Made by a program: the position numbers and the translations under genes
Assembly (NCBI RefSeq): GCF_023498005.1
Contig: NZ_CP097289.1
Location: forward strand, 7,068,001-7,132,000
DNA: 64,000 nucleotides
Source of the DNA: Streptomyces durmitorensis
GTDB taxonomy: Bacteria; Actinomycetota; Actinomycetes; Streptomycetales; Streptomycetaceae
Direction of reading: 5' to 3'
The notes under the pieces: generated by a model
Database searches by the model: none
Seen by the model: the letters and a program-made list of their open reading frames with translations, nothing else
Told to the model about the DNA's origin: nothing
Shown: one piece after another, positions 8,233 to 31,341 of the stretch
Layout: each line of letters starts with the position of its first letter
Numbering within the stretch: the stretch's first letter is position 1

Positions 8233-8255
8233 ACCGTACGACCGGGCACTGACAA
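8233..8255 (-). promoter_or_regulatory. RecA-independent (PafBC-type) damage promoter of ogt
   Basis: Read on the minus strand: TTGTCAGTG (8255-8247), CCCGGTCG, TACGGT (8238-8233), then 7 nt to the ATG. This is an exact fit to TTGTCAGTG-N8-TAnnnT. Confidence 0.8.
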
Positions 8256-8281
8256 CGCCGCCCCGCGCCCGTCCCCGGGCC

Positions 8282-9199
8282 CTAGGAGATGGCCTTGCGC
8301 ACGACGTCCGGCGTGTTCGTGATGATGCCGTTCACCCCGAAGCCCGCCACCCGCTGGGCGGCGGCAGCGTCGTTCACGGTCCAGGTGAAGATCTCCAGGC
8401 GCTTGCGGTGCGGCCCCTTGAGCGAGTGGATCGCGGCGACGTACTCGCGGGAGATGGAGGTGTGGGTCGAGTTGATCTGGTCGGAGAACTTGGCGTACGC
8501 GGGCAGGTCGGCGACCGCGGGCGTGCCGAGGAAGCCGGTCTTGATGTCGGGCCGCAGCTTGTGCACCGTCTTGACGCTGTCGGCGCTGAAGCTCTGGATG
8601 ACGAGCTTGCTCTTGACGTGGTGCCGGTCGAGCCAGCCCGTCTTGCGCAGGACGGCGAGGCCCTGCTTCTCGATGCCCGGGTACAGCTCGGGCTTCTTGA
8701 ACTCGAAGACCAGGCTCTGGTGGTTGCGCGAGACCCGGTTCATGTACTGCTTCAGCGTCGGCACCCGCTGCCCCGCGTACTTGGGAGCGAACCAGCTGCC
8801 CGCGTCCAGCCTGGCGATCTCCGCCGCGGTGAAGTCCGCGACCTTCCACGGCGCGCGGTCGGGGAAGAGCTGCTCGACGTTCGTCGTCCGCTTCAGGGTG
8901 TCGTCGTGCATGATCACGAGTTCGCCGTCCTTGGTGCGCTGGACGTCGTTCTCGACCCAGCGGAACCCCATGTCAGCCGCCTTGTCGATGGCTGCGAAAG
9001 TGTTCTCGGGGGCGTACGCGGAAGCGCCACGGTGCGCGACGACCAGCGGTCTGTCGTGCGAGGCGGATGTCTGGGCGGACGCCCGCGTGGACGTCGGCGC
9101 CGACGTCTGGTCGGCGGCGTGAGCGGTGGCGGATGGGAGAGCGAGTGCACCGGCTCCAAGAAGAGCGGCGGTGGTGGCAGCGGCAACGCGTGCGGACAA
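8282..9199 (-). CDS. Secreted glycerophosphodiester phosphodiesterase
   Basis: A 305-residue exported enzyme hydrolysing glycerophosphodiesters to glycerol 3-phosphate and an alcohol. A signal peptide (SARVAAATTAALLGAGALA, cleavage near TAHA-AD) is followed by the GDPD barrel: VVAHRGASAYAPENT with the catalytic His/Arg/Glu, then WVENDVQRTKDGELVIMHD with the metal acids and second His. The C-terminal FTWTVND and GVNGIITNTPD motifs are present. TTG at 9199 is preferred: GAGGAG lies 6 nt upstream and the signal peptide then starts cleanly; upstream in-frame codons add an implausible leader. Role is probably phosphate or glycerol scavenging outside the cell. Confidence 0.93.
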   Translation of the reverse strand: MSARVAAATTAALLGAGALALPSATAHAADQTSAPTSTRASAQTSASHDRPLVVAHRGASAYAPENTFAAIDKAADMGFRWVENDVQRTKDGELVIMHDDTLKRTTNVEQLFPDRAPWKVADFTAAEIARLDAGSWFAPKYAGQRVPTLKQYMNRVSRNHQSLVFEFKKPELYPGIEKQGLAVLRKTGWLDRHHVKSKLVIQSFSADSVKTVHKLRPDIKTGFLGTPAVADLPAYAKFSDQINSTHTSISREYVAAIHSLKGPHRKRLEIFTWTVNDAAAAQRVAGFGVNGIITNTPDVVRKAIS

Positions 9200-9448
9200 C
9201 GGTGACTCCTCGCGATGTGCGGGCACGGACCGGATGAGAGTGACAGTCCACGGCCAACGCGAGACAGGTGCAGGATGGCCACAGGTTGAACGGAGACAGC
9301 CGGGTTTCTTTCCCGGAAAATCGTTCGCAAGTTCCGGAGTGAGCTTTACTCTCTGCGTCAGCCCATGGCCTGTCAGTGGACGGTCGGCTGGGGCCACTTG
9401 GGGGCAATCCCGGGCATTTGGACACAACAGGCGGAAGGGCTACCGCGC

Positions 9449-10318
9449 ATGCAGGGGACAGTCGACGGTTTCAGCTATGGACTGGTCACACCGGTGGCGG
9501 CGTACCTCATGGCCTGCCTCGGGGGAGCGCTCGGTCTGCGCTGCACCACGAGGTCGCTCCTCGTCGCGCACTCCTGGCGGCCCGGCTGGCTCGCACTGGG
9601 GTCGGCGGCCATCGGTTCCGGCATCTGGACCATGCACTTCATCGCGATGATGGGCTTCACCGTCGAGGAAGCCCCGATCCACTACGACAAGGCGCTGACC
9701 TTCGCGAGTCTCGCCGTCGCCATCGTCATGGTCGGCATAGGGATCTTCATCGTGGGCTACCGCGGCGCGACCGGGGCCGCACTGTTCACCGGGGGAACGA
9801 TCACCGGCCTCGGCGTCGCGTCGATGCACTATCTGGGAATGGCCGGTATGCGTCTGCGCGGGACGCTGGAGTACAACACCTTCACCGTCTCGGCGTCCGT
9901 GGTGATCGCCGTGGTCGCCGCCAGCGCGGCCCTGTGGGCAGCCGCACAGGTCAGAGGCTTCCTCTGGAGTCTGGGCGCGAGCCTCGTCATGGGGCTCGCC
10001 GTCAGCGGCATGCACTACGTGGGGATGGCCGCCCTCAGCGTCCATCTGCACGGCTCGTCGTCCGCGGCGCCGACCGCGGGGGACTCGCCCGCCGAGCTGC
10101 TCGCGCCCATGATGATCGGCCCGCTCGCCTTCCTGCTCCTGGCGGGCGTGATCGTGATGTTCGACCCGCTGATGGTGATGGGCAAGGCCGACCTCCAGAG
10201 CGCCGCGCAGGGGCAGCACGCGCCCTATCCCGTCCCGCGCTCGGGCGACCGGCACGACCCGCGGGCGGGCCGCAGGCCCCCGCCGCGCGCCGGCCCCAAG
10301 GCGCCGCAGAGCTGGTGA
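9449..10318 (+). CDS. MHYT-domain integral membrane protein
   Basis: A 289-residue protein with about seven hydrophobic segments and three MHYT-type motifs: [21 protein letters not shown] and [10 protein letters not shown]. In the MHYT family these conserved Met/His residues are proposed to bind a metal (copper) and sense oxygen, CO or NO. Relatives often carry GGDEF, EAL or LytTR output domains. Here only a basic, Pro-rich cytoplasmic tail of about 45 residues follows the last helix, so no output domain is encoded. ATG at 9449 has CGGAAGGG upstream. It is divergent from the GDPD gene, and uvrB follows after 40 bp but with its own promoter. Confidence 0.85.
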
Positions 10319-10328
10319 TCCGACCCCG

Positions 10329-10351
10329 TTGTCAGTGCGGGGTCGTACGGT
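10329..10351 (+). promoter_or_regulatory. RecA-independent (PafBC-type) damage promoter of uvrB
   Basis: TTGTCAGTG at 10329-10337, an 8-nt spacer, and TACGGT at 10346-10351, then 7 nt to the uvrB ATG. The layout is identical to ogt, down to GTCG before the TACGGT, and implies a leaderless mRNA. Confidence 0.82.
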
Positions 10352-10358
10352 GGGTTCC

Positions 10359-12488
10359 ATGCGGCCCGTATCCAAGATCGAACGCACGGTGGCACCTTTC
10401 GAGGTCGTCAGCAACTACACGCCAAGCGGCGACCAGCCGGCGGCCATCGCCGACCTGGAGCGGCGCGTCAACGCAGGTGAGAAGGACGTCGTCCTGCTCG
10501 GCGCGACCGGCACCGGCAAGTCGGCCACCACCGCGTGGATGATCGAGAAGCTTCAGCGCCCCACCCTCGTGATGGCGCCGAACAAGACGCTGGCCGCCCA
10601 GCTGGCCAACGAGTTCCGAGAGCTCCTGCCGAACAACGCGGTGGAGTACTTCGTCTCGTACTACGACTACTACCAGCCCGAGGCGTACGTCCCGCAGTCG
10701 GACACGTACATCGAGAAGGACTCCTCGATCAACGAGGAAGTCGAGCGCCTGCGCCACTCCGCGACGAACTCGCTGCTCACCCGGCGTGACGTGATCGTGG
10801 TCGCCTCCGTCTCCTGCATCTACGGCCTCGGCACCCCGCAGGAGTACGTCGACCGGATGGTCTCGCTCAAGGTCGGCGACGAGATCGACCGCGACCAGCT
10901 CCTGCGCCGCTTCGTCGACATCCAGTACACGCGCAACGACGTGGCGTTCGCCCGCGGCACCTTCCGGGTCCGCGGCGACACCATCGAGATCTTCCCGGTC
11001 TATGAAGAGCTGGCCGTCCGCATCGAGATGTTCGGCGACGAGATCGAGGCGCTCTCCACGCTGCACCCCCTCACCGGCGAGGTCATCAGCGACGACGACC
11101 ACCTGTACGTCTTCCCGGCCTCGCACTACGTGGCGGGTCCTGAGCGACTGGAGAAGGCGGTCACCGGCATCGAGAAGGAGCTCGCCGAGCGCCTCGCCGA
11201 GCTGGAGAAGCAGGGCAAGATGCTGGAGGCCCAGCGCCTTCGCATGCGCACGACGTACGACCTGGAGATGCTCCGCCAGATCGGCTCCTGCTCCGGCGTC
11301 GAGAACTACTCGATGCACTTCGACGACCGCGAGCCCGGCTCCGCACCCAACACCCTCATCGACTACTTCCCCGAGGACTTCCTCCTCGTCATCGACGAGT
11401 CGCACGTCACGGTCCCGCAGATCGGCGCGATGTACGAAGGGGACGCCTCCCGCAAGCGCACCCTGGTGGACCACGGCTTCCGGCTGCCGTCCGCGCTGGA
11501 CAACCGCCCGCTGAAGTGGGAGGAGTTCCTCGGCCGCATCGGCCAGACCGTCTACCTCTCGGCGACCCCGGGGAAGTACGAACTCTCGCGCGGCGACGGC
11601 TTCGTCGAGCAGATCATCCGCCCCACCGGCCTCATCGACCCGGAGGTCGTGGTCAAGCCCACCGAGGGCCAGATCGACGACCTGGTGCACGAGATCCGCA
11701 CGCGCACCGAGAAGGACGAGCGCGTCCTGGTCACCACGCTCACGAAGAAGATGGCCGAGGACCTCACCGACTACTTCCTCGAACTGGGCATCCAGGTCCG
11801 CTATCTGCACAGCGACGTCGACACCCTGCGCCGCGTCGAGCTCCTGCGCGAGCTGCGTGCCGGTGAGTACGACGTGCTGGTCGGCATCAACCTCCTGCGT
11901 GAGGGACTCGACCTGCCCGAGGTCTCCCTGGTCGCCATCCTCGACGCCGACAAGCAGGGCTTCCTGCGCTCCGGCACCTCGCTGATCCAGACGATCGGCC
12001 GCGCGGCTCGTAACGTCTCCGGTCAGGTCCATATGTACGCGGACAAGGTCACCCCGGCGATGGAGCAGGCCATCGACGAGACCAATCGCCGCCGCGAGAA
12101 GCAGATCGCGTACAACAAGGAGAAGGGGCTCGACCCGCAGCCGCTGCGCAAGAAGATCAACGACATCGTGTCGGCGATCGCGCGCGAGGAGGTCGACACC
12201 GAGCAGCTGCTCGGCACGGACTACCGCAAGGGGAAGGGCGCCGACGCGAAAACAGCGGCCAAGGCGCCCGTGCCCGCGCTCGGCGGGAAGGCGGGCAAGG
12301 GCAAGGCCGCCGAGAAGGTGCCCACCGACCGACCCGCTGCCGAACTGGCCGAGCAGATCGAGGAGATGACCGCGCGGATGCGCGCGGCAGCCGCCGACCT
12401 GCAGTTCGAGATCGCGGCACGGCTGCGTGACGAGGTGTCAGAGATGAAGAAGGAGCTCAGGCAGATGAGGGAGGCGGGGCAGGCATAG
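10359..12488 (+). CDS. uvrB: Excinuclease ABC subunit B
   Basis: A 709-residue damage-verifying helicase of nucleotide excision repair, loaded by UvrA and partnering UvrC. Walker A GATGTGKS is at 48-55, the damage-probing beta-hairpin region [12 protein letters not shown] follows, and Walker B reads VIDESHV. The helicase C-terminal motifs [13 protein letters not shown] and QTIGRAARN are intact. A Lys/Ala-rich linker (around [16 protein letters not shown]) separates the helicase core from the C-terminal UVR coiled coil ([20 protein letters not shown]) that binds UvrC. ATG at 10359 is placed 7 nt after the -10 of a damage-type promoter. Full length and intact. Confidence 0.97.
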
Positions 12489-12544
12489 GCGTACTGCCTG
12501 GTGTGTTGCAAGACCGACACAAAGTGCCGCCCGCACTGCGGCAC

Positions 12545-12567
12545 TGTCAGTGCCTCTGCGTAGGGTG
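12545..12567 (+). promoter_or_regulatory. RecA-independent (PafBC-type) damage promoter of the terD gene
   Basis: CTGTCAGTG at 12545-12553, an 8-nt spacer, TAGGGT at 12562-12567. Eight of nine bases of the upstream element match. The predicted start near 12574 gives a leader of about 48 nt with GAGAGGGG before the GTG. A small hairpin (12524-12531 with 12539-12546) abuts it. Confidence 0.72.
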
Positions 12568-12621
12568 CTGGGCAACCGCACAGACCGGCGGTTGCCGAGG
12601 CAGTTCGAGAGGGGACAGCGC

Positions 12622-13200
12622 GTGACGGTCAACATGACCAAGGGTCAGGCCATCAGCCTGCAGAAGGACGACGGGGGCGCCCTGACCGCGGTGCGCATGG
12701 GGCTCGGCTGGCAAGCGGCCCCGAGGCGCGGCCTGTTCGGCACCCGCACGCGTGAGGTCGACCTGGACGCGTCGGCGGTCCTGTTCGCCGACAAGCAGCC
12801 GGTGGACGTCGTGTTCTTCCGTCACCTCGTCAGTGACGACGGTTCCGTGCGGCACACCGGCGACAACCTCGTCGGCGGTGTCGGCCAGGGCGGGGACGAC
12901 GAGGCGATCCTCGTCGACCTCGCGCGGATCCCGGTCCACATCGACCAGATCGTCTTCACGGTGAACTCCTTCACGGGTCAGACGTTCCAGGAGGTGCAGA
13001 ACGCGTTCTGCCGCCTGGTCGACGAGACCAACGGCCAGGAGCTCGCTCGGTACACGCTCGACGGCGGCGGTCAGTACACCGCGCAGATCATGGCGAAGGT
13101 CCACCGCGCGGGCACGGGCTGGCAGATGACGGCCATCGGCAATCCCGCCAACGGCCGCACGTTCCAGGACCTGATGCCGTCGATCCTGCCGCACCTGTAG
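12622..13200 (+). CDS. terD: TerD-family stress protein
   Basis: A 192-residue TerD-fold protein, the calcium-binding domain of the tellurite/stress Ter systems. The hallmarks are EVDLDASAVLFA, HTGDNLVGGVGQGGDDEAI and VDLARIPVHIDQIVF, which supply the acidic Ca2+ sites, and the C-terminal RYTLDGGGQYTAQIMAKV. GTG at 12622 is preferred (GAGAGGGG 7 nt upstream); an ATG four codons in is the alternative. It is followed 46 bp later by a larger TerD-related gene and then terC, forming a small ter locus. A damage-type promoter precedes it. In other bacteria these proteins act in metal, oxidative and DNA-damage stress; biochemical activity is not established. Confidence 0.92.
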   Translation: MTVNMTKGQAISLQKDDGGALTAVRMGLGWQAAPRRGLFGTRTREVDLDASAVLFADKQPVDVVFFRHLVSDDGSVRHTGDNLVGGVGQGGDDEAILVDLARIPVHIDQIVFTVNSFTGQTFQEVQNAFCRLVDETNGQELARYTLDGGGQYTAQIMAKVHRAGTGWQMTAIGNPANGRTFQDLMPSILPHL

Positions 13201-13246
13201 ACACGCGGCACCAGTAGGTACAGAGGGCACGAGGGGGACGAAGGCG

Positions 13247-15205
13247 ATGACGGCCGAGCTGGTCCGGGGGCAGAACCACCCGCTTCCCGAGACCCGACTG
13301 GAGATCCGGGTCTCGGTCGGCAAGCCGATCGTGGCGGGGGTCACGCTCAGCGACGACCAGGGCAAGGTGCGCGGCATTGAGTGGGTGGCCCATCCCGGCT
13401 CGCCCACGCTGCCGGGGCTCGAAGTGCCCAAGCAGGCGGCCGCCGACCACCGCCTCGCGGTGGACCTCGGCGCCGTGCCGGAAGCGGTGCACCGGGTCAA
13501 CGTCCTCCTCGCGCTGCCGGTCGGCGTCGGGGGACCGGTCAGCTTCGGCTCGCTCGCCGCCCCCTTCGTCGCCGTCACCGGCCTTGACGGCTCCGAGGTC
13601 GCCAGCTACACCATCACCGACCTGGACGCCGAGTCCGCCGTCGTCGCCCTTGAGCTCTACCGCAGGCAGGACGCGTGGAAGGTGCGCGCCGTCGGCCAGG
13701 GGTATGCGGGCGGCCTCGCTGACATGCTCACCGACCAGGGCCTGCCGCAGGCCCACGAACTGGCGGGCACGATCAACGAAGCGGTGGCCCAGGGCCTCGC
13801 CCGCTCGGTGGCCGCGCCACCGCCCCGCCCCTCGGACGAGGCCCGGGTGCGGACGACGGGACAGACCGCCGCCCCCGGCCCGGGAACGCAGGGCCCGGAC
13901 AGCACGGCCGCCGCCCAGCCGGCCCAGCCCCCTCAGCCCGCCCCGGCGACGCATCAGCCGGGCGACGCGAGCCCCTCGTCCGGCGGCCCCGTCAACTACA
14001 CCCATCCGGGCCGTCAGGCCACCGCACCGCCGCCGCCCCCGCCGACCGCGGCCCCGGCCGAGCCGGGCAGGCCGGCCCAGCCCGTGGCGGGCGACGCGAC
14101 CGGCTGGTCCCTGGAGGAGCGCCTCTACAACCAGGTGTGGGGCATGTTCGAGGACCTGGCCCGCACGACAGCCGCGTACCGAAGCGCCGTCGACTTCGCC
14201 GAGTCGCGCATGGACCAGGAGCTGGACAAGGTCCTCTCCGACCCGCGCAGCCGCATCGGCAACACCGGAGACGTCGCGCGCGAGGCCGCCCGCACCAAGC
14301 ACGGCCTGCTCGTCGACCGGGCGAGGGCCGCCCTCGACCGCGACCTGGGCCAGCTCGCCGCCGAGTCCGAGGTCGTCGAGCCCGCGCTGCCCATGGCGTA
14401 CGCAGGCTGGGACAGCCCCGTCTGGCACGCCTACCGCACCCCCATGGAGATCCCCATGGCGCTGCGCCTCGGAGACCTCCACCTGCCCGAGCGCCCCGAC
14501 CTGCACATCCCGATGCTGGTCCGGCTGCCCCTTGAGCGCGGCCTGTGGATCGACAGCGGCCGCTCGTCCGGCACGGACTCCGTGGCCGACACGGACCAGC
14601 TGCGCCGCCTCGCCATGGACAGCGCGGTCGCGCACGCCGCGCGGCTGCTCGCCGTCTATCCGGCGGGCGAGTTCACGGTGCACGTCATCGACGCCGCGGG
14701 CTCCGCGGCCGGCGCGCTCTCCCCGCTGGTGACCGCGGGCGTGCTCGACGAGCCCCCGGCCGCCGGCGCGGCAGGCGTCTCCGGCGTGCTCGCCAAGCTC
14801 ACCCAGCGCGTGGACCTGGTGCAGATGGCGATCCGCGCGGGCGCCGCCGACGCGCTGCCGCCGGACCTGGACACCGCCGAGCAGCTCCTGATCGTCAACG
14901 ACTTCCCGCACGGCTTCGACGACCGCGCCGTGACCCAGCTCCGCTACCTCGCGGACGAGGGCCCGGCGGTCGGCGTGCACCTGATGCTGGTCGCCGACCG
15001 CGAGGACGCCGCCGAGTACGGCCCGCTGCTCGACCCGCTCTGGCGCGCCCTCCTGCGCCTGACCCCGGTGGCCGACGACCACCTCGCCGACCCCTGGGTC
15101 GGTCATGCGTGGACGTACGAACCGCCGATGACGCCGCCCGGCAGCCGGGTGCTCCAGCAGGTCCTGAACCAGGTCGCGCACGCCCGGCGCACGGGCGGCC
15201 GCTGA
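13247..15205 (+). CDS. TerD-like domain fused to a degenerate ATPase-like domain
   Basis: A 652-residue multidomain protein. Residues 1-185 form a divergent TerD-like beta-sandwich (ETRLEIRVSVGKPIVAG, VHRVNVLLALP, VALELYRRQDAWKVRAVGQG). Residues 195-285 are a Pro/Ala-rich linker. Residues 290-652 have a helical section (LYNQVWGMFEDLARTTAAY) and then an alpha/beta domain with strands HVIDAAG, EQLLIVNDFPHGFDD and GVHLMLVADR. Those last two resemble the Walker B and sensor strands of FtsK/HerA-type P-loop proteins. No P-loop is present: the expected position reads RLPLERGLWIDSG. It is therefore probably a non-hydrolysing scaffold, which is inference. GAGGGGGACGAAGG precedes the ATG; likely co-transcribed with terD. 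Confidence 0.75.
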   Translation: MTAELVRGQNHPLPETRLEIRVSVGKPIVAGVTLSDDQGKVRGIEWVAHPGSPTLPGLEVPKQAAADHRLAVDLGAVPEAVHRVNVLLALPVGVGGPVSFGSLAAPFVAVTGLDGSEVASYTITDLDAESAVVALELYRRQDAWKVRAVGQGYAGGLADMLTDQGLPQAHELAGTINEAVAQGLARSVAAPPPRPSDEARVRTTGQTAAPGPGTQGPDSTAAAQPAQPPQPAPATHQPGDASPSSGGPVNYTHPGRQATAPPPPPPTAAPAEPGRPAQPVAGDATGWSLEERLYNQVWGMFEDLARTTAAYRSAVDFAESRMDQELDKVLSDPRSRIGNTGDVAREAARTKHGLLVDRARAALDRDLGQLAAESEVVEPALPMAYAGWDSPVWHAYRTPMEIPMALRLGDLHLPERPDLHIPMLVRLPLERGLWIDSGRSSGTDSVADTDQLRRLAMDSAVAHAARLLAVYPAGEFTVHVIDAAGSAAGALSPLVTAGVLDEPPAAGAAGVSGVLAKLTQRVDLVQMAIRAGAADALPPDLDTAEQLLIVNDFPHGFDDRAVTQLRYLADEGPAVGVHLMLVADREDAAEYGPLLDPLWRALLRLTPVADDHLADPWVGHAWTYEPPMTPPGSRVLQQVLNQVAHARRTGGR

Positions 15206-15338
15206 CGCGTTTCCGGGCCCGATGAGCCGTCGGGGCCGCTGACGGTAAAGCGACTTTTGCTCTGCCTGACCTGGCCTTTTGGCTCTTGTTTGGATTCTCC
15301 TTTACCAACCCTTGGTGTTTCGCGTACTCTTCTTGCAG

Positions 15339-15446
15339 CGGAGGGGAGTACTCCCGAACGCGACGTACCCGTCAATACGGACCGCCATCGGTCCCGGGGC
15401 GTCGGCCCGCGGGGCGGTGAGCCGCCTCGGGTGGAAGAGACCTCCG
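15339..15446 (+). ncRNA. yybP-ykoY family (Mn2+) riboswitch
   Basis: The 285-bp gap before terC holds all recognisable parts of this aptamer. P1 is CGGAGG (15339-15344) with CCTCCG (15441-15446). GGGGAGTA (15343-15350) follows the 5' strand. CGTCAAT appears in the second leg, and AGAGACC closes the 3' side immediately before the P1 return strand. Two GC-rich hairpins fill the centre. The family is known to bind Mn2+ and to sit upstream of TerC/Alx/MntP-type genes. The terC ribosome site GGAGG (15482-15486) can pair in a small CGCC/GGCG hairpin, suggesting translational control. Confidence 0.85.
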
Positions 15447-15490
15447 GCAGCGACGACGCTGATCAGTAGCCGTACGACGCCGGAGGCGCA

Positions 15491-16492: not shown

Positions 16493-16515
16493 CGGCATCG
16501 GACGTAGGAGTTACC

Positions 16516-16564
16516 AGCACGGGGTGTGGCCCGCGGCGGATTGCCGCGGGCCACACCCCGTGCT
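16516..16564 (+). terminator. Strong hairpin terminator of terC
   Basis: Perfect 22-bp stem (16516-16537 with 16543-16564) around a 5-nt loop GGATT, 24 bp after the terC stop. The sequence after the stem is mildly T-rich. Confidence 0.9.
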
Positions 16565-16575
16565 TGCTTGGATCC

Positions 16576-16890
16576 ATGAAGTTCGTTCAGATCATCGAGT
16601 TCGAGACCGACCGCATCGACGACATGCGGGCCCTGGTCGAGCAGGCGGACCAGCAGGCCGACCAGCAGGCGCCGGGCCGCGAGGGCGGCCCCACGCACCG
16701 CCTCGTCCTTCAGGACCGGGGCAACCCCCGCCGCTTCCACGTCCTCATCGAGTTCGCATCGGCCGAGGACGCGCAGCGCAACAGTGACTCTCCCGAGACG
16801 GCGAGGATGGCCGAACAGCTCGCCGCGCTGTGCACCAGCGGTCCGTCCTTCACGGACTGCGACGTACGGGAGATGACAGAGCTGAAGTAG
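16576..16890 (+). CDS. Conserved small protein, possible dimeric alpha-beta barrel
   Basis: A 104-residue cytoplasmic protein of unknown function. The pattern KFVQIIEFETDRIDDMRALV, then RFHVLIEFASAEDAQRNSDS and a C-terminal VREMTEL resembles ABM/EthD-like dimeric ferredoxin-fold proteins (strand, helix, strand, strand, helix), but I do not recognise a named family. A short internal duplication ADQQADQQA sits in the first helix. The ATG at 16576 comes only 12 nt after the terC terminator stem, so the promoter must overlap that hairpin or transcription reads through. Likely real because of its codon bias and compact fit between neighbours. Confidence 0.7.
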   Translation: MKFVQIIEFETDRIDDMRALVEQADQQADQQAPGREGGPTHRLVLQDRGNPRRFHVLIEFASAEDAQRNSDSPETARMAEQLAALCTSGPSFTDCDVREMTELK

Positions 16891-16923
16891 CGGAGCCCAG
16901 GCGTCCGGTGCAGCATCGGAGGC

Positions 16924-18021: not shown

Positions 18022-18048
18022 GCCGGTGGCCAGCCCTGTGGGTCTCCG

Positions 18049-19359: not shown

Positions 19360-19438
19360 GCCGCGTCAACTACCCGCTGTGACGGCCGGTTACGGGGGCG
19401 TGCGGAGGCGCGGAGAGGTTCGTCAGTACGCTGACGGC

Positions 19439-19900: not shown

Positions 19901-19919
19901 TCCCGTCGGTGGACGCGGC

Positions 19920-20576: not shown

Positions 20577-20586
20577 GTTCCTCAGC

Positions 20587-21270: not shown

Positions 21271-21415
21271 GCGCCCGACGATAGCCGCGCCACACGTTCG
21301 GGTGAAGGTGTCGGAGCGGCACCGCAAATCGAATGCACGTGCTATATGGTCGGGTGCGGCATCGGGCATTCTTGGCAGTCCGGGTTTGTTATCACCCAGG
21401 GCATCCGTCCCGGCG

Positions 21416-21438
21416 TTGTCAGTGGCTCGCCCTAGTCT
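21416..21438 (+). promoter_or_regulatory. RecA-independent (PafBC-type) damage promoter of uvrA
   Basis: TTGTCAGTG at 21416-21424, 8-nt spacer, TAGTCT at 21433-21438. The expected start near 21445 falls inside the in-frame ATG at 21443, which argues that translation begins at the GTG at 21494 instead. Confidence 0.82.
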
Positions 21439-21493
21439 GTGAATGACGGGGGTCCCGCCCCTGTCACTTCTCTCAAGAAAGGTGCGGACCGGC

Positions 21494-24508
<3,015 letters not shown>

Positions 24509-24541
24509 CGGAGCTGCCTGCGTCCGCAGGTCTGTCGTGGC

Positions 24542-24579
24542 TGGTCGCGCAGTTCCTCGCGCCCCTTTGGGGGCGCCCT
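24542..24579 (+). repeat. Streptomyces-type dispersed intergenic palindrome
   Basis: TCGCGCAGTTCCTCGCGCCCC followed by a GGGGGCGC return arm forms a short hairpin. From memory, near-identical CGCGCAGTTCCCCGCGCCCC elements occur many times between genes in Streptomyces genomes. It sits just before the uvrA terminator. Confidence 0.6.
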
Positions 24580-24580
24580 G

Positions 24581-24625
24581 AAGGGCTGCCGGACAAGGGT
24601 TTCCCCCCCTTGTCCGGCAGCCCTT
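24581..24625 (+). terminator. Terminator of uvrA
   Basis: Perfect 19-bp stem (24581-24599 with 24607-24625), 7-nt loop TTTCCCC, ending in TTT. It lies 72 bp after the uvrA stop. Confidence 0.9.
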
Positions 24626-24646
24626 TGCCGTGGTCGCCTGGGTCGC

Positions 24647-25432
24647 ATGACCGTACGTACTGAACGCGCAGGCGCAGTGACGACCATCGTGCTGTCCCGG
24701 CCCGACGTGCGGAACGCCGTCGACGGGCCCACCGCCCGTGCCCTCGCCGACGCGTTCCGTGCCTTCGACGCCGACCCCGACGCGTCCGTCGCCGTGCTGT
24801 GGGGCGAGGGCGGCACCTTCTGTGCCGGTGCGGACCTCAAGGCCATCGGAACGCCCGCCGGGAACGAGGTCGCAGAGAAGGGCGACGGGCCCATGGGGCC
24901 CACCCGCATGCGTCTCTCCAAGCCCGTCATCGCCGCGATCTCCGGACACGCGGTCGCCGGAGGCCTGGAGCTGGCGCTCTGGTGCGATCTGCGGGTCGCC
25001 GACGAGGACGCCGTACTCGGAGTCTTCTGCCGCCGCTGGGGCGTCCCGCTCATCGACGGCGGCACGGTGCGGCTGCCCCGGCTCATCGGGGAGAGCCGCG
25101 CCATGGACCTCGTGCTCACCGGCCGCCCCGTCCCCGCCACCGAGGCCCTCGCGATGGGCCTGGTCAACCGGACCGTGCCGCCGGGCACGTCCCGCGCCGC
25201 GGCCGAACGCCTCGCCGCGGAGATCGCGGCGTTCCCCCAGGCCTGCCTCCGCAACGACCGGCTGTCCGTGCGGGAACAGGGCGGCCTGACCGAGGAGGAC
25301 GCGATGGCGGGCGAGCTGCGCCACGGTCTGCGATCTCTCGTCGAAGCGGGAGACGGCGCGGCCAGGTTCGCCGCGGGGGAGGGGCGGCACGGGGCCTTCA
25401 CGGACAGCGCGGGGGACGCGACCGCCCGCTGA
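24647..25432 (+). CDS. Crotonase-family (enoyl-CoA hydratase/isomerase) protein
   Basis: A 261-residue crotonase fold acting on an acyl-CoA thioester. The oxyanion-hole motifs are TFCAGADLKAIG and ISGHAVAGGLELALWCD. At the two catalytic glutamate positions of hydratases, this protein has GVFCRRWGVPLIDGGTV, with Asp in one and no clear Glu in the other, so classic hydratase activity is doubtful. It may be an isomerase or a ring- or carboxyl-acting relative. The start ATG closely follows the uvrA terminator. It ends exactly next to the stop of the convergent yceI-like gene, with no bases between. Confidence 0.85.
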   Translation: MTVRTERAGAVTTIVLSRPDVRNAVDGPTARALADAFRAFDADPDASVAVLWGEGGTFCAGADLKAIGTPAGNEVAEKGDGPMGPTRMRLSKPVIAAISGHAVAGGLELALWCDLRVADEDAVLGVFCRRWGVPLIDGGTVRLPRLIGESRAMDLVLTGRPVPATEALAMGLVNRTVPPGTSRAAAERLAAEIAAFPQACLRNDRLSVREQGGLTEEDAMAGELRHGLRSLVEAGDGAARFAAGEGRHGAFTDSAGDATAR

Positions 25433-26008
25433 CTAGCCCTCGGCGGGCGCGGTCTCCGGCTCCAGGAACTGCATGTCCAGCTGGATCTTCACCACGTCAC
25501 CGAGCAGCCCGGCGCCGAAGTCGAGCCCGTAGTCACTGCGCCTGATCTCCCCGGTCGCCTCGAACCCCGCATGCCGTCGCGGTGAGCCCGGGAAGGCCTG
25601 GACCCCGCCGAACTCGACGGCGAGCGTGATCGGCCTCGTCACCTCGCCGATGGTCAGTTCGCCCTCCAGCGTCCACTCCTCGTCCTTGCCGATGACCTGA
25701 GTCGAGCGGAACGTCATCGTGGGGCGGCGCTCCACGTCCAGCAGATCCGGCGCGCGGACGTGCGCGTCACGGTCCTTGTTGCCGGTGTCGATCGACGCCA
25801 GGTCGATGGTCGCCGTCACCGATGAGGTCTCGGCGCTCTCGCCCACGACCAGAGCGGCCGTCACCTCGGCGAACCGCCCCCGCACCTTCGAGATCCCGAG
25901 GTGGCGGATGGTGAAGTTGACGGCGGAGTGGAACGGGTCGATCTCCCAGTCCCCCGCGGGCAGGGGAAGTGCGGTCGTCGAAGCGGCGGTGCTCGTGTCA
26001 GAAGTCAT
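25433..26008 (-). CDS. YceI-family lipocalin-like protein
   Basis: A 191-residue beta-barrel of the YceI family, which binds isoprenoid-type lipids such as polyprenols. Motifs: GDWEIDPFHSAVNFTIRHLG, VRGRFAEVTAAL, DRDAHVRAPDLLDVERRPTM and GELTIGEVTRPITL, with RSDYGLDFG near the end. Unlike E. coli YceI, no signal peptide is visible, so the protein is predicted cytoplasmic, as is common in actinobacteria. ATG at 26008 opens the only sensible start. It is divergent from the HTH regulator at 26111, sharing 102 bp, which suggests that regulator may control it. Confidence 0.9.
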   Translation of the reverse strand: MTSDTSTAASTTALPLPAGDWEIDPFHSAVNFTIRHLGISKVRGRFAEVTAALVVGESAETSSVTATIDLASIDTGNKDRDAHVRAPDLLDVERRPTMTFRSTQVIGKDEEWTLEGELTIGEVTRPITLAVEFGGVQAFPGSPRRHAGFEATGEIRRSDYGLDFGAGLLGDVVKIQLDMQFLEPETAPAEG

Positions 26009-26110
26009 GCCGTCCACGATGCGAGGCCGCCCGCACCCGAGGAAGGCCGAGCCGAGACTGGTAGTGACAGGGCCACGATCCGGGCCGGTGACGGCTGGTA
26101 CGTTCGGCCG

Positions 26111-26965
26111 GTGAGCGACAACGAGCTGGGCACCTTCCTGCGCACCTGCCGTGAAGCGGTCACGCCCGCCGAAGTCGGGCTCCCGACCGGCCCCCGGCGC
26201 CGCACGCCGGGCCTGCGCCGCTCCGAGGTCGCCACGCTCGCCGGTGTCAGCGTCGAGTACCTCGCCCGCCTGGAACAGGGCCGGGACCGCCACCCGTCCC
26301 CGCAGGTGATGGGCGCGCTGGCGGATGCCCTGCGGCTGTCGGTGGAGGAGCGCTTCCACCTGCGCCGCCTGGAGAAGGAGACGAGCGGCGATCCGTGCTG
26401 CCCGACGGCGAGCGCGCCCTCCCACTCGGTGCGCCCCACCGTGCGGGCGCTCATCGACCGCATGGAGCCCACCCCCGCCGTCCTGTTCAACCGGCTCAGC
26501 GACGTCCTCGCGTACACCGCGGGCTATGAGCGGATCATGGGGCCCGTCGGCCTCCTCGACGACGAGCGGCCCAACCTCATCCGGTTCCTCTTCACCGACG
26601 AGCGGGCCCGCGCCGCCTACCCCGAGTGGGACGGCGTCGCCGACGAGCAGGTCGCCTCGTTCCGGGCCGAGTCCATGCTGACCGACCCCCACGCCGAGGG
26701 ATTCGCCGACGAGTTGACCCTCATAGCCGGCGCCCCGTTCGCCGACCGCATGGCGGCCGTGCCGCGGCTGCCCCGGCGCAGTGGAGTCGAACGCATGGCG
26801 CACCCGGAGGTCGGTGCGGTGCGCCTTTCGTACGAGACGCTGACGCTGCCCGACGCCGACGGCCAGCGCCTGGTCGTCCAACTGCCCGCCGACGAGGCCT
26901 CGTCGGCCGCGCTCGACCGCCTCGACGGCCGCCGGCCCGGCGGTCTTCGCGCGGTGACGGGCTGA
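26111..26965 (+). CDS. XRE-family regulator with MmyB-like ligand domain
   Basis: A 284-residue DNA-binding protein. The N-terminal helix-turn-helix reads LRRSEVATLAGVSVEYLARLEQGRDRHPS (given in part), preceded by PRRRTPGLRR, a pattern typical of the large actinobacterial MmyB/XRE family. The C-terminal half (PTPAVLFNRLSDVLAYTAGY, LIRFLFTDERARAAYPEWD) is the PAS-like ligand-binding domain thought to bind a fatty acid or other small ligand. GTG at 26111 is used. It is divergent from the YceI gene, a probable target, and converges on the sugar kinase. Such regulators are often linked to dehydrogenases or YceI-like stress genes. Confidence 0.88.
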   Translation: MSDNELGTFLRTCREAVTPAEVGLPTGPRRRTPGLRRSEVATLAGVSVEYLARLEQGRDRHPSPQVMGALADALRLSVEERFHLRRLEKETSGDPCCPTASAPSHSVRPTVRALIDRMEPTPAVLFNRLSDVLAYTAGYERIMGPVGLLDDERPNLIRFLFTDERARAAYPEWDGVADEQVASFRAESMLTDPHAEGFADELTLIAGAPFADRMAAVPRLPRRSGVERMAHPEVGAVRLSYETLTLPDADGQRLVVQLPADEASSAALDRLDGRRPGGLRAVTG

Positions 26966-26970
26966 GCGCC

Positions 26971-27900
26971 CTACCCCAGCTCCGCCGCGTACGGCGGCTC
27001 CGCCCCCGCGCGGGACACGGTGACGGCAGCCGCGCGTGCGGCGAAGCGCAGGACCTCGCCCCAGCTGTCCGCGCCGAGCCCGGAGAGGGCCTCGGCCGAG
27101 AGCGCGTCCCGCGCGCGAAGCCCGTGCAGCAGAGCCGCGTTGACGGTGTCGCCCGCCCCGATGGTGTCCACCACGTCGACCGGCTCGCCCGGCACCGACC
27201 ACTCACCGCCGTCCCGCGTGAAGACGGTGAGACCCTTGCCGCCCCGCGTGATCACCACAGCGCCGGGACCGGACGCGAGCCACTCGCGCGGCGTGCCGCC
27301 GAGCCAACTCGCGTCTTCCTCCGACAACTTGAGCAGCGAGACTGACGGCAGCCAGCTCTTGAACCGGGCCCGGTAGGCGTCCGCGTCCGGGATCAGTCCC
27401 GCACGGATGTTGGGGTCGAGGGCCGTGAAGACGCCCCGCGCCGCCTCTCCGCGCATCAGCTTCTCGTAGGCGCTCGCGCCCGGTTCGAGGACGAGCGAGC
27501 ACGTGCCGAACGACACCGCGCGTACGCCGTCGGGCAGCCGCTCCGGGGCCGTGAACAGCCGGTCCGCCGTGCCCTCGACGTAGAAGGAGTAACCGGCGGA
27601 GCCGTCCGCGCCGATCGAGGCCACCGCGAGCGTCGTCGGCTCGGCGCCCCGCTGGACGTACGACACGTCGACCCCCGCGGTCCGCAGCCCGTCGACCAGC
27701 GCGTCGCCGAACGCGTCCGCCGAGATCCGCGAGCAGAAGGCGACGGGGGAGCCGAGACGGCCGAGGGCCACCGCGGTGTTGTACGGACCGCCGCCGAGCC
27801 GCGGGGCGAGTGCGGGCAGCCCTGCGTCACCACGCCCCGGGGCACCTGCGGACTCCTGCGGGACGAGGTCGATCAGGGCCTCTCCGGCGACGACGATCAC
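26971..27900 (-). CDS. PfkB-family carbohydrate kinase, probable fructokinase
   Basis: A 309-residue ribokinase-fold sugar kinase. MIVVAGEALIDLVPQ, RLGGGPYNTAVALGRLG, SADAFGDALVDGL, FDPN-like ALDPNIRAGL, LKLSEEDASWL and the catalytic signature VVDTIGAGDTVNAALLHGL are all as in fructokinases. Asp of GAGD is the catalytic base. Specificity for fructose is a family-based guess; other ketoses or nucleosides are possible. ATG at 27900 is the obvious start. No sugar transporter or sugar regulator lies next to it, and the gene appears monocistronic. Confidence 0.87.
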   Translation of the reverse strand: MIVVAGEALIDLVPQESAGAPGRGDAGLPALAPRLGGGPYNTAVALGRLGSPVAFCSRISADAFGDALVDGLRTAGVDVSYVQRGAEPTTLAVASIGADGSAGYSFYVEGTADRLFTAPERLPDGVRAVSFGTCSLVLEPGASAYEKLMRGEAARGVFTALDPNIRAGLIPDADAYRARFKSWLPSVSLLKLSEEDASWLGGTPREWLASGPGAVVITRGGKGLTVFTRDGGEWSVPGEPVDVVDTIGAGDTVNAALLHGLRARDALSAEALSGLGADSWGEVLRFAARAAAVTVSRAGAEPPYAAELG

Positions 27901-28103
27901 GGGTGGTTCCTCTCGGCTCTGCGGTGGCTCAGGGGGCGTGGCTCAGCGTTCGTGCTCCCCGGCTTCCGCCACAGGCTAGGGCTTCCCCGGGCGCTCGGCC
28001 CGACACGGGCGGCACTCGGGCACGGCCGCGCCCAACGCGGGCAAAGGGCACCCCACCGGTAGGGTCTGATCCGTCACCGAAGCGCCTGACCTGTGGAGAT
28101 TCC

Positions 28104-28535
28104 ATGCCCGGTACGCCGCCCCCCGCCCGCCGCACGGTGCTGCGCGCCGCCGCTCTCGCCCCGGCCGCCGGCCTGGGGATCACGGCCTGCTCGTCCGGCG
28201 GCGACGGCGGTGGCTCCAACCGTTCGGCGCCGACCGCGCCGGTGGACCTCGGTGGCTCCGACGAGGTGAAGGTGGGCGCATCGAAGCTCTACACCGACGA
28301 GAACGTGGTCGTGAGCCGCATCGCGGACGACGAGTACAAGGCGTTCAGCACGATCTGCACGCACGCCAAGTGCCCCATCAACAAGCTGGAGGGGCACAAG
28401 CTCATCTGCCCCTGCCACGGAAGCCAGTTCGACGCCACGAACGGCAAGGTGCTGCACGACCCCGCCGTCAGGCCGCTGCAGGAACTGCCGGTGAAGGTGG
28501 AGGACGGCAAGATCGTCGCGGGCCCCGGGGCCTAG
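28104..28535 (+). CDS. Rieske [2Fe-2S] lipoprotein, probable Tat substrate
   Basis: A 143-residue exported iron-sulfur protein. The N-terminus PPPARRTVLRAAALAPAAG has a twin-arginine pair, and the lipobox GITAC puts a lipid-modified Cys at about residue 31; a Gly/Ser linker follows. The Rieske domain has CTHAKCPI and CPCHGSQFD, giving two Cys and two His cluster ligands plus the extra Cys. Folded cofactor proteins use Tat, so all parts agree. It is smaller than the cytochrome bc1 Rieske subunit and has no partner oxygenase beside it, so its electron partner is unknown. A TGGAGA ribosome site precedes the ATG. Confidence 0.9.
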   Translation: MPGTPPPARRTVLRAAALAPAAGLGITACSSGGDGGGSNRSAPTAPVDLGGSDEVKVGASKLYTDENVVVSRIADDEYKAFSTICTHAKCPINKLEGHKLICPCHGSQFDATNGKVLHDPAVRPLQELPVKVEDGKIVAGPGA

Positions 28536-28557
28536 CCCGGGACCGGCGGGCGGCGGC

Positions 28558-29505
28558 TCACTCCCAGTCCCACGCGATCCCCAGGATCCCGGCCCGCACC
28601 TGCGTCTCCACCAGGTGCACCGACCGATGGCTGCCGCTCAGCGTCAGCTCCTGGCGCCCGCCGCGCGGCGCGGCGGCCGAATGCTGGGTGAAGCGGTGGC
28701 AGCGTACGGGCAGCGCGGCCTCGTCGAAGCGCACCTGGAGCGCGTACTGCCCGCCCGCGAAGCTGAAGCCACGGAAGTACTCGGTGGCCGCCCCCGCCGT
28801 GCCGTCCTCGAAGCCGTAGCGGAACAGATGCGTGTCGCCCGCGCGCAGGCGCGCGTCGAACAGCAGCTCGGCGACGAGCACCCCCGTCTCGTGGTGCAGG
28901 CGCACGCGCCCCGTGCGGCAGTTCTCCAGGGCGTGCACGCCGATGCGCTCCGGTACGCAGCCGGGGTCGCCGCGGTAGATCGCGAGGTAGCGGTCCACGC
29001 CGTCCCGGTGGGCGCGCACGGCGTGCTGCGAGTCGCGGCCGAGCATCTCGCGGCGCCCGCCGATCCGCACCCGCTCGTGGTGGCCGACGGTGTGCAGGCC
29101 GCCGTCGAGCGGCGAACCGAGGTCGGTGATCAGCTCCTGGAGGACGTCGGACGCCTCCAGGAGGGAGCGGTAGGAGCGGGCGGCGGGGCGTTCGCAGTCG
29201 GGGTGGCCGGAGGGCTTGGCGAGGAGCCGGATCAGTGACTCCTCGGGGAGCTGGAGGATCTCCTCCAGGGCGCGCACGGCACGCAGCGACTCGGTGCGCT
29301 GGGGGCGCCGGGCACCCTGCTGCCAGTAACTCAGGCTCGTCACCCCGACGTTGACGCCCTGGCGCGCGAGATGATGCCGTACGCGTTGCAGGGGAAGGCG
29401 CCGTGCGGCGATCGCGGCCCGCAGCGCCACGTGGAAGGGACCGGTGCGCAGCGCGGCCTCCAGGTCCGCAGGCGCGCCGTCCGCGAGCTGTGTGCCGTGC
29501 CGCAT
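28558..29505 (-). CDS. XRE-like HTH regulator with large unknown C-terminal domain
   Basis: A 315-residue probable transcription factor. Residues around 25-90 contain a helix-turn-helix of XRE type (LPLQRVRHHLARQGVNVGVT, SLSYWQQGARRP) followed by a helical ALEEILQLPEESLIRLL. The remaining 220 residues, rich in beta-strand pattern and in His/Arg, match no family I can name. ATG at 29505 is chosen because AGAAGGG lies about 8 nt upstream; a longer start would run through the operator-like repeats. It is divergent from the secreted protease gene, and one copy of a repeated TTCACATC motif sits just upstream of its start, suggesting autoregulation. Confidence 0.72.
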   Translation of the reverse strand: MRHGTQLADGAPADLEAALRTGPFHVALRAAIAARRLPLQRVRHHLARQGVNVGVTSLSYWQQGARRPQRTESLRAVRALEEILQLPEESLIRLLAKPSGHPDCERPAARSYRSLLEASDVLQELITDLGSPLDGGLHTVGHHERVRIGGRREMLGRDSQHAVRAHRDGVDRYLAIYRGDPGCVPERIGVHALENCRTGRVRLHHETGVLVAELLFDARLRAGDTHLFRYGFEDGTAGAATEYFRGFSFAGGQYALQVRFDEAALPVRCHRFTQHSAAAPRGGRQELTLSGSHRSVHLVETQVRAGILGIAWDWE

Positions 29506-29526
29506 CGCAAGGCCCTTCTGTGAACA

Positions 29527-29603
29527 TTCACATCGGTCGTCCGGGCGTGCGCGCCGGTCGGGGCGGGCCACCAGGTGGGCGTACGAGGGGTGTTCACATC
29601 CGT
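29527..29603. promoter_or_regulatory. Repeated TTCACATC operator-like sites between regulator and protease
   Basis: TTCACATCGGT at 29527-29537 and TTCACATCCGT at 29593-29603 are direct repeats 66 bp apart. The first is part of a palindrome TGTGAACATTCACA (29519-29532). A third partial copy (GTTCACGG) follows near 29612. Their position between divergent genes suggests the regulator's own operators. Confidence 0.45.
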
Positions 29604-29732
29604 ACGCCGCCGTTCACGGCCCAAGTAATCCCGCATTGAACCTTGTTGACCCGTACCCGACAACACTCGATGCTCAATCGCAGCGTCCGGACGCGCTCCT
29701 CCACCCCTCACCCCCCGCTTGGGAGGAACGCG

Positions 29733-30377
29733 ATGCGCCAACGAATCAGCAGATACAGCGGACGCAGACGTCTGTCCGCGCTCGCCGTGGTGGCAGCGGC
29801 CCTGGTGGCCGCACCGGCGGCCACGGCCACGGCCGCCCCCGACAGCCCTCCGTCCGCCTCCGCGCCGGGCACCGGCACCGACGCCCCTTCTCTCCTGGCC
29901 GCCAAGCGGCTGAACATCACGATGCAGGCCCAGCAGAAGACCAACTGGTGCTGGGCCGCGGCCGGGAACACGATCGCCACCTTCTACGGCAAGAACTACA
30001 GCCAGAACCAGTTCTGCAACGCGGCCTTCGGGCGGGGCCAGAACACCGAGTGCCCCAACTCGCAGGCCACGCTCGGCGACGTCCAGAACGGCCTGGACTG
30101 GGCGGGCATCAGCGCCGGTTCGTACGTCAGCGGCTGGCTGCGCTACCCGACCGTGCAGGCCGAGATCAATGCGGGCCGCCCGGTCGAGACCCGCATCCAG
30201 TGGTCGAACGGCGGCGGTCACATGCACGTCCTCTACGGGTACGACGATGCGAGCAGCTGGGTCTACTGGGGCGATCCGTGGCCGTCGAACGACCGCTACA
30301 ACTGGGCCTCGCACAGCTGGTACGTCAACAACAACACCTTCTCCTGGACCCACTCGCTGTACCGGATCGGGGCGTGA
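29733..30377 (+). CDS. Secreted papain-like (C39_2-type) cysteine protease
   Basis: A 214-residue exported protease. Signal peptide: RRRLSALAVVAAALVAAPAA with cleavage near ATATAA-PD. The mature part has the papain-like signature QQKTNWCWAAAGNTIATFYG with nucleophile Cys73; the catalytic His is in GGGHMHVLYGY (His163 or His165) and Asp181 in GDPWPSND completes the triad. Extra cysteines (FCNAA, ECPNS) may form a disulfide. The family includes secreted bacterial enzymes that may be self-activating; targets are unknown. GGGAGGA precedes the ATG. The next gene starts 5 bp after its stop, so the two form an operon. Confidence 0.88.
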   Translation: MRQRISRYSGRRRLSALAVVAAALVAAPAATATAAPDSPPSASAPGTGTDAPSLLAAKRLNITMQAQQKTNWCWAAAGNTIATFYGKNYSQNQFCNAAFGRGQNTECPNSQATLGDVQNGLDWAGISAGSYVSGWLRYPTVQAEINAGRPVETRIQWSNGGGHMHVLYGYDDASSWVYWGDPWPSNDRYNWASHSWYVNNNTFSWTHSLYRIGA

Positions 30378-30382
30378 GCGCG

Positions 30383-31183
30383 ATGAACCGTCACCTTCCC
30401 CGCCCTCTGCTGAGGGCGGCGCTCGCCGGCTCCGCCGCCACCCTGCTGCTCGGCCTCGCCGCGCCGCACGCGGGCGCGGACTCCGGGCCCTCGGACGCCT
30501 CGCTCGAAGCGGCTCACGATGCCGCGGCCGCCCCCAGGACCCTCGACACGCTCTCCCGCTTCTTCGCACGGGAGGGGGCGGTCAGCAGGGCCGCGGCGGA
30601 CCCGCGCGTGCAGGGCGCCGACGCCGTTCCCGTGCGCTACCTCTCCCCGGAGTTCGTCGCCGGAAAGAAGGGCGCGCCGATCGCCCGCGTCGAGTTCCTG
30701 GCCAGCAAGGCGGTCTCCTCCGACGGACAGGAGGCCTCCTTGTGGACGGTGAAGCAGGGCGGCTCCTGGCAGGTCGTGAACATCGCCACCGGGGACGACG
30801 AGACGCACTACGCGCGCGTGGGCGCCGACAAGCTCCCCGGGGGCACCGTTTTCCACGAGCCGCAGATCAACGCCTGGTACGTGCAGGGGCGGGGGCGGGT
30901 GCTGCCGCTCGACGCCGACGCGGTGCGTGCCGTCGGCTCGGGCGGGGCCTCGGTCGCCGCCTATCAGAAGCGGGTGCACGCCGCGTACGCCGACAAGCTG
31001 CCCGGCTCGGCGTACGCGAAGTCCGGCAAGGCGGGGGGCTTCGCCCCGAAGGAGCGGGCCTCTGAACCGTCCCCCGAAGGCCCCGTCACGGTCGCCTCCT
31101 CCGTGGCCGGAGCGGGGGCCCTGCTCGCCCTCGGCCTCTCCGGGGTGGCCGTCCGGCGACGTCGCGCCCGGCAGCACGGCTGA
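30383..31183 (+). CDS. Secreted, C-terminally membrane-anchored protein of unknown function
   Basis: A 266-residue protein with an N-terminal signal peptide (LLRAALAGSAATLLLGLAA, cleavage near HAGA-DS), an extracytoplasmic domain of about 190 residues, and a C-terminal helix SVAGAGALLALGLSGVAV followed by RRRRAR, a type I anchor. There is no LPXTG-type sorting motif. The domain (VEFLASKAVSSDGQEASLWT, GGSWQVVNIATGDDE, GTVFHEPQINAWYVQGRGRV) looks beta-rich and matches no family I know. It is 5 bp behind the C39-like protease gene, so it may be that enzyme's membrane partner, substrate or inhibitor. ATG at 30383 used; an overlapping GTG at 30374 is possible. Confidence 0.75.
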   Translation: MNRHLPRPLLRAALAGSAATLLLGLAAPHAGADSGPSDASLEAAHDAAAAPRTLDTLSRFFAREGAVSRAAADPRVQGADAVPVRYLSPEFVAGKKGAPIARVEFLASKAVSSDGQEASLWTVKQGGSWQVVNIATGDDETHYARVGADKLPGGTVFHEPQINAWYVQGRGRVLPLDADAVRAVGSGGASVAAYQKRVHAAYADKLPGSAYAKSGKAGGFAPKERASEPSPEGPVTVASSVAGAGALLALGLSGVAVRRRRARQHG

Positions 31184-31186
31184 CCT

Positions 31187-31242
31187 GCCCCGGCCTCCGG
31201 CCGGGGCTTCCCCACCCACCCGCCCTTCAGGGCGGGTGGGCT
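31187..31242 (+). terminator. Double hairpin terminator after the protease pair
   Basis: Two adjacent stems: 31187-31195 with 31201-31209 (9 bp), and 31217-31228 with 31231-31242 (11-12 bp, tight loop). They begin just after the stop at 31183. Confidence 0.75.
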
Positions 31243-31318
31243 CAAGGGCGGGGGAGGGAGAGCGGGTGCCCCAGGCGCTGGGTCTGGAGGGAGAGCGGCG
31301 GCCCCCTCCGAGCCCTGA

Positions 31319-31341
31319 CTGTCAGCCCCCGCCAGTAGGGT
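31319..31341 (+). promoter_or_regulatory. Probable damage-type promoter of the uvrC operon
   Basis: CTGTCAGCC at 31319-31327, an 8-nt spacer, TAGGGT at 31336-31341, then 7 nt to the ATG. Six of nine bases match TTGTCAGTG; spacer, -10 and distance to ATG match ogt and uvrB exactly. Confidence 0.65.

Follow-up and report, generated by a model that had tools for sequence, protein, structure and literature searches.

The 64-kb stretch of the Streptomyces durmitorensis chromosome analyzed here (the window; contig NZ_CP097289.1, positions 7,068,001 to 7,132,000) carries the repair genes ogt, uvrB, uvrA and uvrC and a terD-like gene, each behind a bipartite element that resembles the RecA-independent DNA damage promoter (RecA-NDp) of mycobacteria, whose consensus is TTGTCRGTG, an 8-nucleotide (nt) spacer and TANNNT. 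An earlier note on this DNA had described five such motifs with an 8-nt gap and had assigned them to a local regulon under the activator PafBC. The elements and their genes are the following.

8233..8255, minus strand: putative PafBC-type (RecA-NDp) promoter of ogt, TTGTCAGTG-N8-TACGGT, ending 7 nt before ATG 8225
7647..8225, minus strand: ogt, O6-methylguanine-DNA methyltransferase, 192 amino acids (Pfam PF01035, PF02870)
10329..10351, plus strand: putative PafBC-type promoter of uvrB, TTGTCAGTG-N8-TACGGT, ending 7 nt before the ATG
10359..12488, plus strand: uvrB, 709 amino acids (NCBIfam TIGR00631)
12544..12566, plus strand: putative PafBC-type promoter of terD, CTGTCAGTG-N8-TAGGGT, 55 nt before the GTG
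12622..13200, plus strand: terD-like gene, 192 amino acids (Pfam PF02342; the frame scanned was 10 residues longer)
21416..21438, plus strand: putative PafBC-type promoter of uvrA, TTGTCAGTG-N8-TAGTCT, 55 nt before GTG 21494
21494..24508, plus strand: uvrA, 1004 amino acids, with a GTG start and a leader (NCBIfam TIGR00630)
31319..31341, plus strand: putative degenerate PafBC-type promoter of uvrC, CTGTCAGCC-N8-TAGGGT, ending 7 nt before the ATG
31349..33397, plus strand: uvrC, 682 amino acids (NCBIfam NF001824)

Read directly from the window, TTGTCAGTG-N8-TANNNT is exact in the ogt, uvrB and uvrA promoters. The terD element begins CTGTCAGTG and has one mismatch (C for the first T), and the uvrC element (CTGTCAGCC-N8-TAGGGT) has three, retaining the TGTC core alone at the correct distance from the -10. 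All five motifs of the earlier note are thus present, although that of terD lies at 12544-12566 and not at 12545-12567, and that of uvrC is degenerate. The 7-nt gap between -10 and ATG that the note had seen at ogt (ATG 8225), uvrB (ATG 10359) and uvrC (ATG 31349) is there in the sequence and supports a leaderless geometry, and the architecture and spacing likewise favor its assignment to the RecA-NDp type. The terD and uvrA genes have leaders, with GTG 12622 and GTG 21494 each 55 nt past the -10; the uvrA start was picked from the conserved leader and a ribosome-site-like GAAAGG in relatives. Upstream of the terD promoter we also note a box, GTGTTGCAAGACCGACACAAA (12503..12523, plus strand), which inspection by eye showed, slightly altered, in many relatives, including ones that lack the TGTCAGTG box. 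Counting matches with up to three mismatches over the window was dropped as evidence, as it does no better than chance (11 matches; shuffles have a mean of 8.7, and 24 of 100 reach 11). Therefore only the ogt, uvrB, terD and uvrA elements stand on the sequence alone, and the uvrC site is accepted because it is conserved among Streptomyces relatives.

The strict element, TGTCRGTG-N8-TANNNT, occurs at 47 sites in the 9.86-Mb genome from which the window comes (38 with A and 9 with G at position R, hereafter A-type and G-type), against none for the reversed pattern that served as control. With one mismatch allowed there are 125 matches against 9 for the reversed control. When the spacer is left free between 2 and 15 nt, 38 of the 39 TGTCAGTG matches have a spacer of exactly 8 and the remaining one of 5 (reversed control, 3 matches). 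The strict element is far above chance genome-wide. The DNA-damage-type promoters form a chromosome-wide set and not the local one that the earlier note had proposed: sites occur throughout the chromosome, and of the 47 strict ones 4 fall in the window, in addition to the degenerate uvrC site.

Genes were assigned by taking the best downstream frame at each site; 35 of the 38 A-type genes were scanned with Pfam, those at loci L027 and L029 were named as uvrB and uvrA from NCBIfam, and 5 of the 9 G-type genes were scanned. By our reading of the domain matches, genes for replication, recombination or repair follow 20 of the 38 A-type sites, in keeping with the link between motif and repair drawn in the earlier note. 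These are recA, ogt, uvrA, uvrB, radA (named from its domain set), dnaX, dnaE, thyX, two UvrD helicases, RarA/MgsA, a uracil-DNA glycosylase (UDG), an AlkZ-like glycosylase, an HhH-GPD protein, an exonuclease III type, a RecD2-like protein that scored below the NCBIfam cut-off, a PD-(D/E)XK nuclease, two DEAD helicases, and rpsF followed by ssb (the latter recognized by eye). The other 18 are mixed or unassigned and include TerD, YjbR, glyoxalase, SUKH, ankyrin and sigma factor genes, among others, and one site (L005) without a convincing downstream gene. The gene ruvC, recognized by eye, is among those behind G-type sites. An ATG or GTG begins at offset 7 after the -10 in 14 cases and at any other offset from 0 to 39 in at most 4, and such a codon falls at offset 6-8 at 20 of the 38 A-type sites. 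The peak at offset 7 would fit a box centered near -26 with the start just past the -10.

Two further observations concern genes behind these sites. A strict site (L283 5001-5022, genome C1:4799000-4799021) separates mzaB from mzaC in an MZA-type anti-phage operon, in which PADLOC called MzaB, MzaC, MzaD and MzaE; its position suggests that the last three genes of the operon have a damage-responsive promoter. Two ECF-like (extracytoplasmic function) sigma factor genes also lie behind sites (L014 448-1452 and L137 794-1498, both on the minus strand), and it is possible that they form a second tier of the response.

Conservation was followed in about 31 kb around uvrB from 40 Streptomyces (for one genome, G440, the first stretch was short and the second nonexistent). 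Relatives were counted at an identity of at least 60% with the match starting by residue 60, which gave 35 usable relatives for ogt, 40 for uvrB, 38 for terD, 34 for uvrA and 33 for uvrC. The uvrB element is conserved in its strict form in 37 of 40 and in a loose form (TGTC-N12-TANNNT) in 39 of 40, and the ogt element in 27/35 and 31/35, respectively. At uvrC the strict form is found in 11 of 33 and the loose form in 31, and all 20 of the loose-only elements end 7 nt before the ATG; judged by this conservation, uvrC is a real but degenerate member of the predicted set. The terD element (strict 13/38, loose 16/38) and the uvrA element (strict 9/34, loose 11/34) are by the same measure lineage-specific, so the membership that the earlier note gave these two genes is not stable across Streptomyces. 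Altogether 104 of the 110 strict sites in these stretches precede the five window genes, a tally made with a looser limit (55%) that counts 13 uvrA and 30 ogt sites. Three of the remaining six (L152, L180, L182) are followed by a frame that has TYLELSQ close to its beginning, presumably a WGR-domain protein, and one uvrB promoter (L166, genome G399) is a natural variant with a spacer of 7 nt, not 8. Genome-wide, the strict element is abundant in all 20 of the Streptomyces sampled, with 24-72 sites per genome against 0-3 for the reversed pattern. Among the 47 loci (L031-L077) from a UvrB protein search, 13 carry a strict element at a distance of 28-29 nt upstream of the first uvrB codon matched, and these include Phycicoccus, Nostocoides, Cellulomonas, Microlunatus and Nocardioides.

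Twelve WYL matches were found in the genome, and adjacent pafB and pafC genes lie 1.7 kb downstream of pafA, arranged as follows.

L126 3850-5211: pafA (NCBIfam TIGR03686)
L126 5285-6343: unscanned frame between pafA and pafB
L126 6915-7868: pafB (best match a solved PafB chain)
L126 7883-8890: pafC (best match a solved PafC chain)

The two proteins best match the solved PafB/PafC chains 7p5x, 9fnd and 6sj9, the first two of which we take to be from M. smegmatis; NCBIfam gave no match for either the PafB or the PafC of this genome. Across 241 compared residue pairs, PafB shares 42% identity with the 7p5x PafB chain; in a comparison that covered PafB only, it retains R46, R50, R181, Y196, R204 and R208 of that chain (6/6 identical). 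The last four are reported as residues needed for single-stranded DNA binding by PafB (PMC11804915), and R46 and R50 would correspond, by our own equation, to the recognition-helix arginines R44 and R48 described in PMC6789036.

Co-occurrence of PafB and the motif over 396 genomes of the phylum was set aside as not discriminating, given that all 60 sampled members of the class have PafB and that PafB-like proteins elsewhere are mostly motif-free; the presence of PafC together with the spacer test was used instead. PafC was found in 233 of 236 genomes of the class. In 15 PafC-positive actinomycetes the spacer is 8 in 117 of 174 spacer-variable matches, against 2 of 38 in five PafC-negative ones (two Bifidobacterium, Mobiluncus and two of family f99), with a Fisher p of 4e-13 for genomes that are related to one another and were chosen by us from those listed. 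Streptomyces tendae, tallied apart, has 51 of 56. The comparison leaves out Arthrobacter G461 (7/17 with spacer 8 among the matches listed), the named PafC-positive genomes for which no match positions were listed, G476 (one match, not with spacer 8), G477, and G619 and G580, which gave no matches. Outside the class, family f17 has PafB and up to 11 sites.

Taken together, these results make it highly likely that these are RecA-NDp promoters and that they belong to a DNA-damage regulon which spans the chromosome, needs no LexA and is activated by PafBC, and the genome's own PafBC copy very probably controls them, rather than classical SOS only. The earlier note's choice of regulator is supported by the adjacent pafB and pafC genes near pafA and by the conserved PafB residues; we infer PafBC binding, damage induction and transcription starts at these sites, and thus the control itself, from homology and co-occurrence. 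By the mechanism carried over from mycobacteria, single-stranded DNA at lesions would bind the WYL domain of PafB, and the PafB-PafC heterodimer would then associate with RNA polymerase that carries the housekeeping sigma factor. PafB would recognize TGTCRGTG, a box at about -26 that would substitute for a -35 element. Transcription would start 7-8 nt past TANNNT; at many genes this position coincides with the start codon's first base, so that the mRNA would be leaderless.

Several points weigh against this interpretation. Eighteen of the 38 A-type genes are not recognizably replication or repair genes, and the S. oceani uvrB locus (L032) has no strict site. The PafC-negative sample is small, chosen by us and not phylogenetically independent, and some PafC-positive members show little signal (3/11, 0/3 and none, the last in G580, within family f101; 2/10 in G556). 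Outside the class, genomes with almost no motif also encode PafB-like proteins of about 35-40% identity (family f18, for example, with 0-1 sites per genome), so the presence of PafB alone does not predict the motif. Finally, a 2022 study reported that in an initial search the M. smegmatis PafBC motif seemed not to be conserved in S. venezuelae (PMC9380542). The abundance of the element in 20 of 20 sampled Streptomyces would argue against that statement.

Of the other explanations, the one that survives best has the box read by one or more other WYL-domain activators, similar to SiwR, and not by PafBC. The 12 WYL matches would leave room for such a protein, and SiwR is described as a WYL activator that answers genotoxic stress in mycobacteria (PMC10693628). 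We consider it unlikely here, however: the published RecA-NDp/-26 motif is matched in box, spacing and distance to the start, the PafB recognition helix is conserved, and the spacing signal is absent from the five PafC-negative relatives.

It is also quite improbable that the genes are mainly under LexA/SOS control, with the box acting as an accessory or a constitutive element of the promoter. In its favor we find the following upstream of uvrA.

21329..21346, plus strand: LexA-like box, TCGAATGCACGTGCTATA, a possible older uvrA promoter, with a related pattern in relatives

A LexA-like box conforming to a looser pattern is conserved at uvrA in 33 of 34 Streptomyces. It is present with or without the PafBC-type element, and the idea that a LexA box replaces that element at uvrA was rejected for this reason. 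LexA is reported to bind a uvrA box in S. venezuelae, where uvrA may be a LexA target (PMC9380542). The terD upstream regions also score high by a crude LexA-like measure (33/38 at up to three mismatches). By the same crude score uvrB (12/40) and ogt (4/35) are close to or below random windows (465/2000), and the element itself is a bipartite promoter, not an operator.

Use of the sites by an alternative (ECF-type) sigma factor, which the two ECF-like sigma genes behind sites (L014, L137) might suggest, is very unlikely: TANNNT is a housekeeping-type -10, and the box ends 8 nt before it, too near for a -35. The published PafBC motif, moreover, lies at -26 (PMC11804915). Chance matching in a GC-rich genome, which would account for the window count at up to three mismatches, merits almost no credence and, for the strict sites taken together, is refuted by the count of 47 against none reversed, the fixed spacer and start-codon register and the conservation across genomes; single sites may still be chance.

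In addition to the canonical sites, the one-mismatch matches point to a possible second promoter class. The set examined comprises 62 of 87 places (55 fetched and 7 TGTCGGTG ones from a separate listing), and in 30 of the 62 matches listed the mismatch is the initial base of the -10 (23 CA, 7 GA). A TGn directly before the -10 is found in 15 of these 30 CA/GA sites and in none of the 47 strict sites (Fisher p 4e-8). The TGn sites fill 16 rows, one of them a repeat of the same place (L229/L252). An ATG or GTG lies 6-8 nt after the -10 in 12 of the 15 distinct TGn sites, and in 8 TGn sites that codon is the start of the best frame with a length of 60 codons or more; among the CA/GA sites without TGn, 4 of 16 rows have such a codon at 6-8 nt. 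The TGn-class genes include those for a DNA_pol_A protein, NADAR and NUDIX proteins, an exonuclease and DNA polymerase III delta, and other -10 variants precede recG, dnaN and genes for a DNA ligase and a topoisomerase IV A subunit. The other Streptomyces stretches contain two TGn-[C/G]A sites, both with a spacing of 8 and 6-7 nt before an ATG; all [C/G]ANNNT matches of those stretches taken together show no clear peak at 8 (8/33, spacers 0-15).

We first treated matches to TGTCAGTGGYGnGTGnCA as a candidate unrelated repeat and rejected this, since 5 of 7 have an open frame 6-7 nt past the would-be -10; it was through these open frames that the TGn class was recognized. There is some small likelihood that this pattern belongs to a different regulator with an inverted half-site. 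We think it somewhat more probable than not that Streptomyces has one PafBC-type regulon with two promoter classes, the canonical TGTCRGTG-N8-TANNNT without TGn, and the same box and spacing with a TGn-extended [C/G]ANNNT, the latter known from one genome and two sites in other Streptomyces. The TGn extension looks like compensation for a weak -10 hexamer. Behind one TGn-class site lies a NADAR-domain gene (L237 130-678) whose function we take to be deADP-ribosylation; it and the macrodomain gene SCO6735 (see below) would be two candidate deADP-ribosylation genes under one promoter type.

The predicted S. durmitorensis set is like the mycobacterial RecA-NDp/PafBC regulon in its TTGTCRGTG box, which would lie near -26, its 8-nt spacer, TANNNT, repair-gene targets and PafB-PafC genes near those of pupylation, and unlike it in the apparent extra class with TGn-extended [C/G]ANNNT. 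The genes recA, uvrA and uvrC are reported to be jointly regulated by PafBC and SOS (PMC8223512). Within Streptomyces, PafBC homologues are already on record, and RecA-NDp promoters have been reported for recA of S. rimosus (Ahel 2002, as cited in PMC5087735) and for SCO6735, the expression of which rises 5-fold after UV (PMC5087735). Those reports concern the same promoter type in the same genus but single genes, whereas the present set is genome-wide, with a spacing control and cross-genome conservation. The LexA/SOS regulon described for S. venezuelae shares recA, ruvC and uvrA as targets or candidates and differs in its repressor box (TCGAAC...) and its logic; in that species recA induction is reported to require prolonged damage, and a RecA/LexA-independent Streptomyces response was left open (PMC9380542). 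A genome-wide PafBC-type regulon for Streptomyces was not seen among the listed openly licensed papers, subscription papers being largely outside that search. The promoter type is already known; the TGn class is possibly new.

With this genome-wide set, abundant in 20 of 20 sampled Streptomyces, and the intact pafB-pafC pair, a RecA/LexA-independent response in Streptomyces becomes directly testable. The set predicts that many repair genes are transcribed as leaderless mRNAs and that damage signals reach replication genes and one phage-defence operon. If the second promoter class is true, searches with the strict motif would miss it, and it would link replication, repair and perhaps the reversal of DNA ADP-ribosylation.

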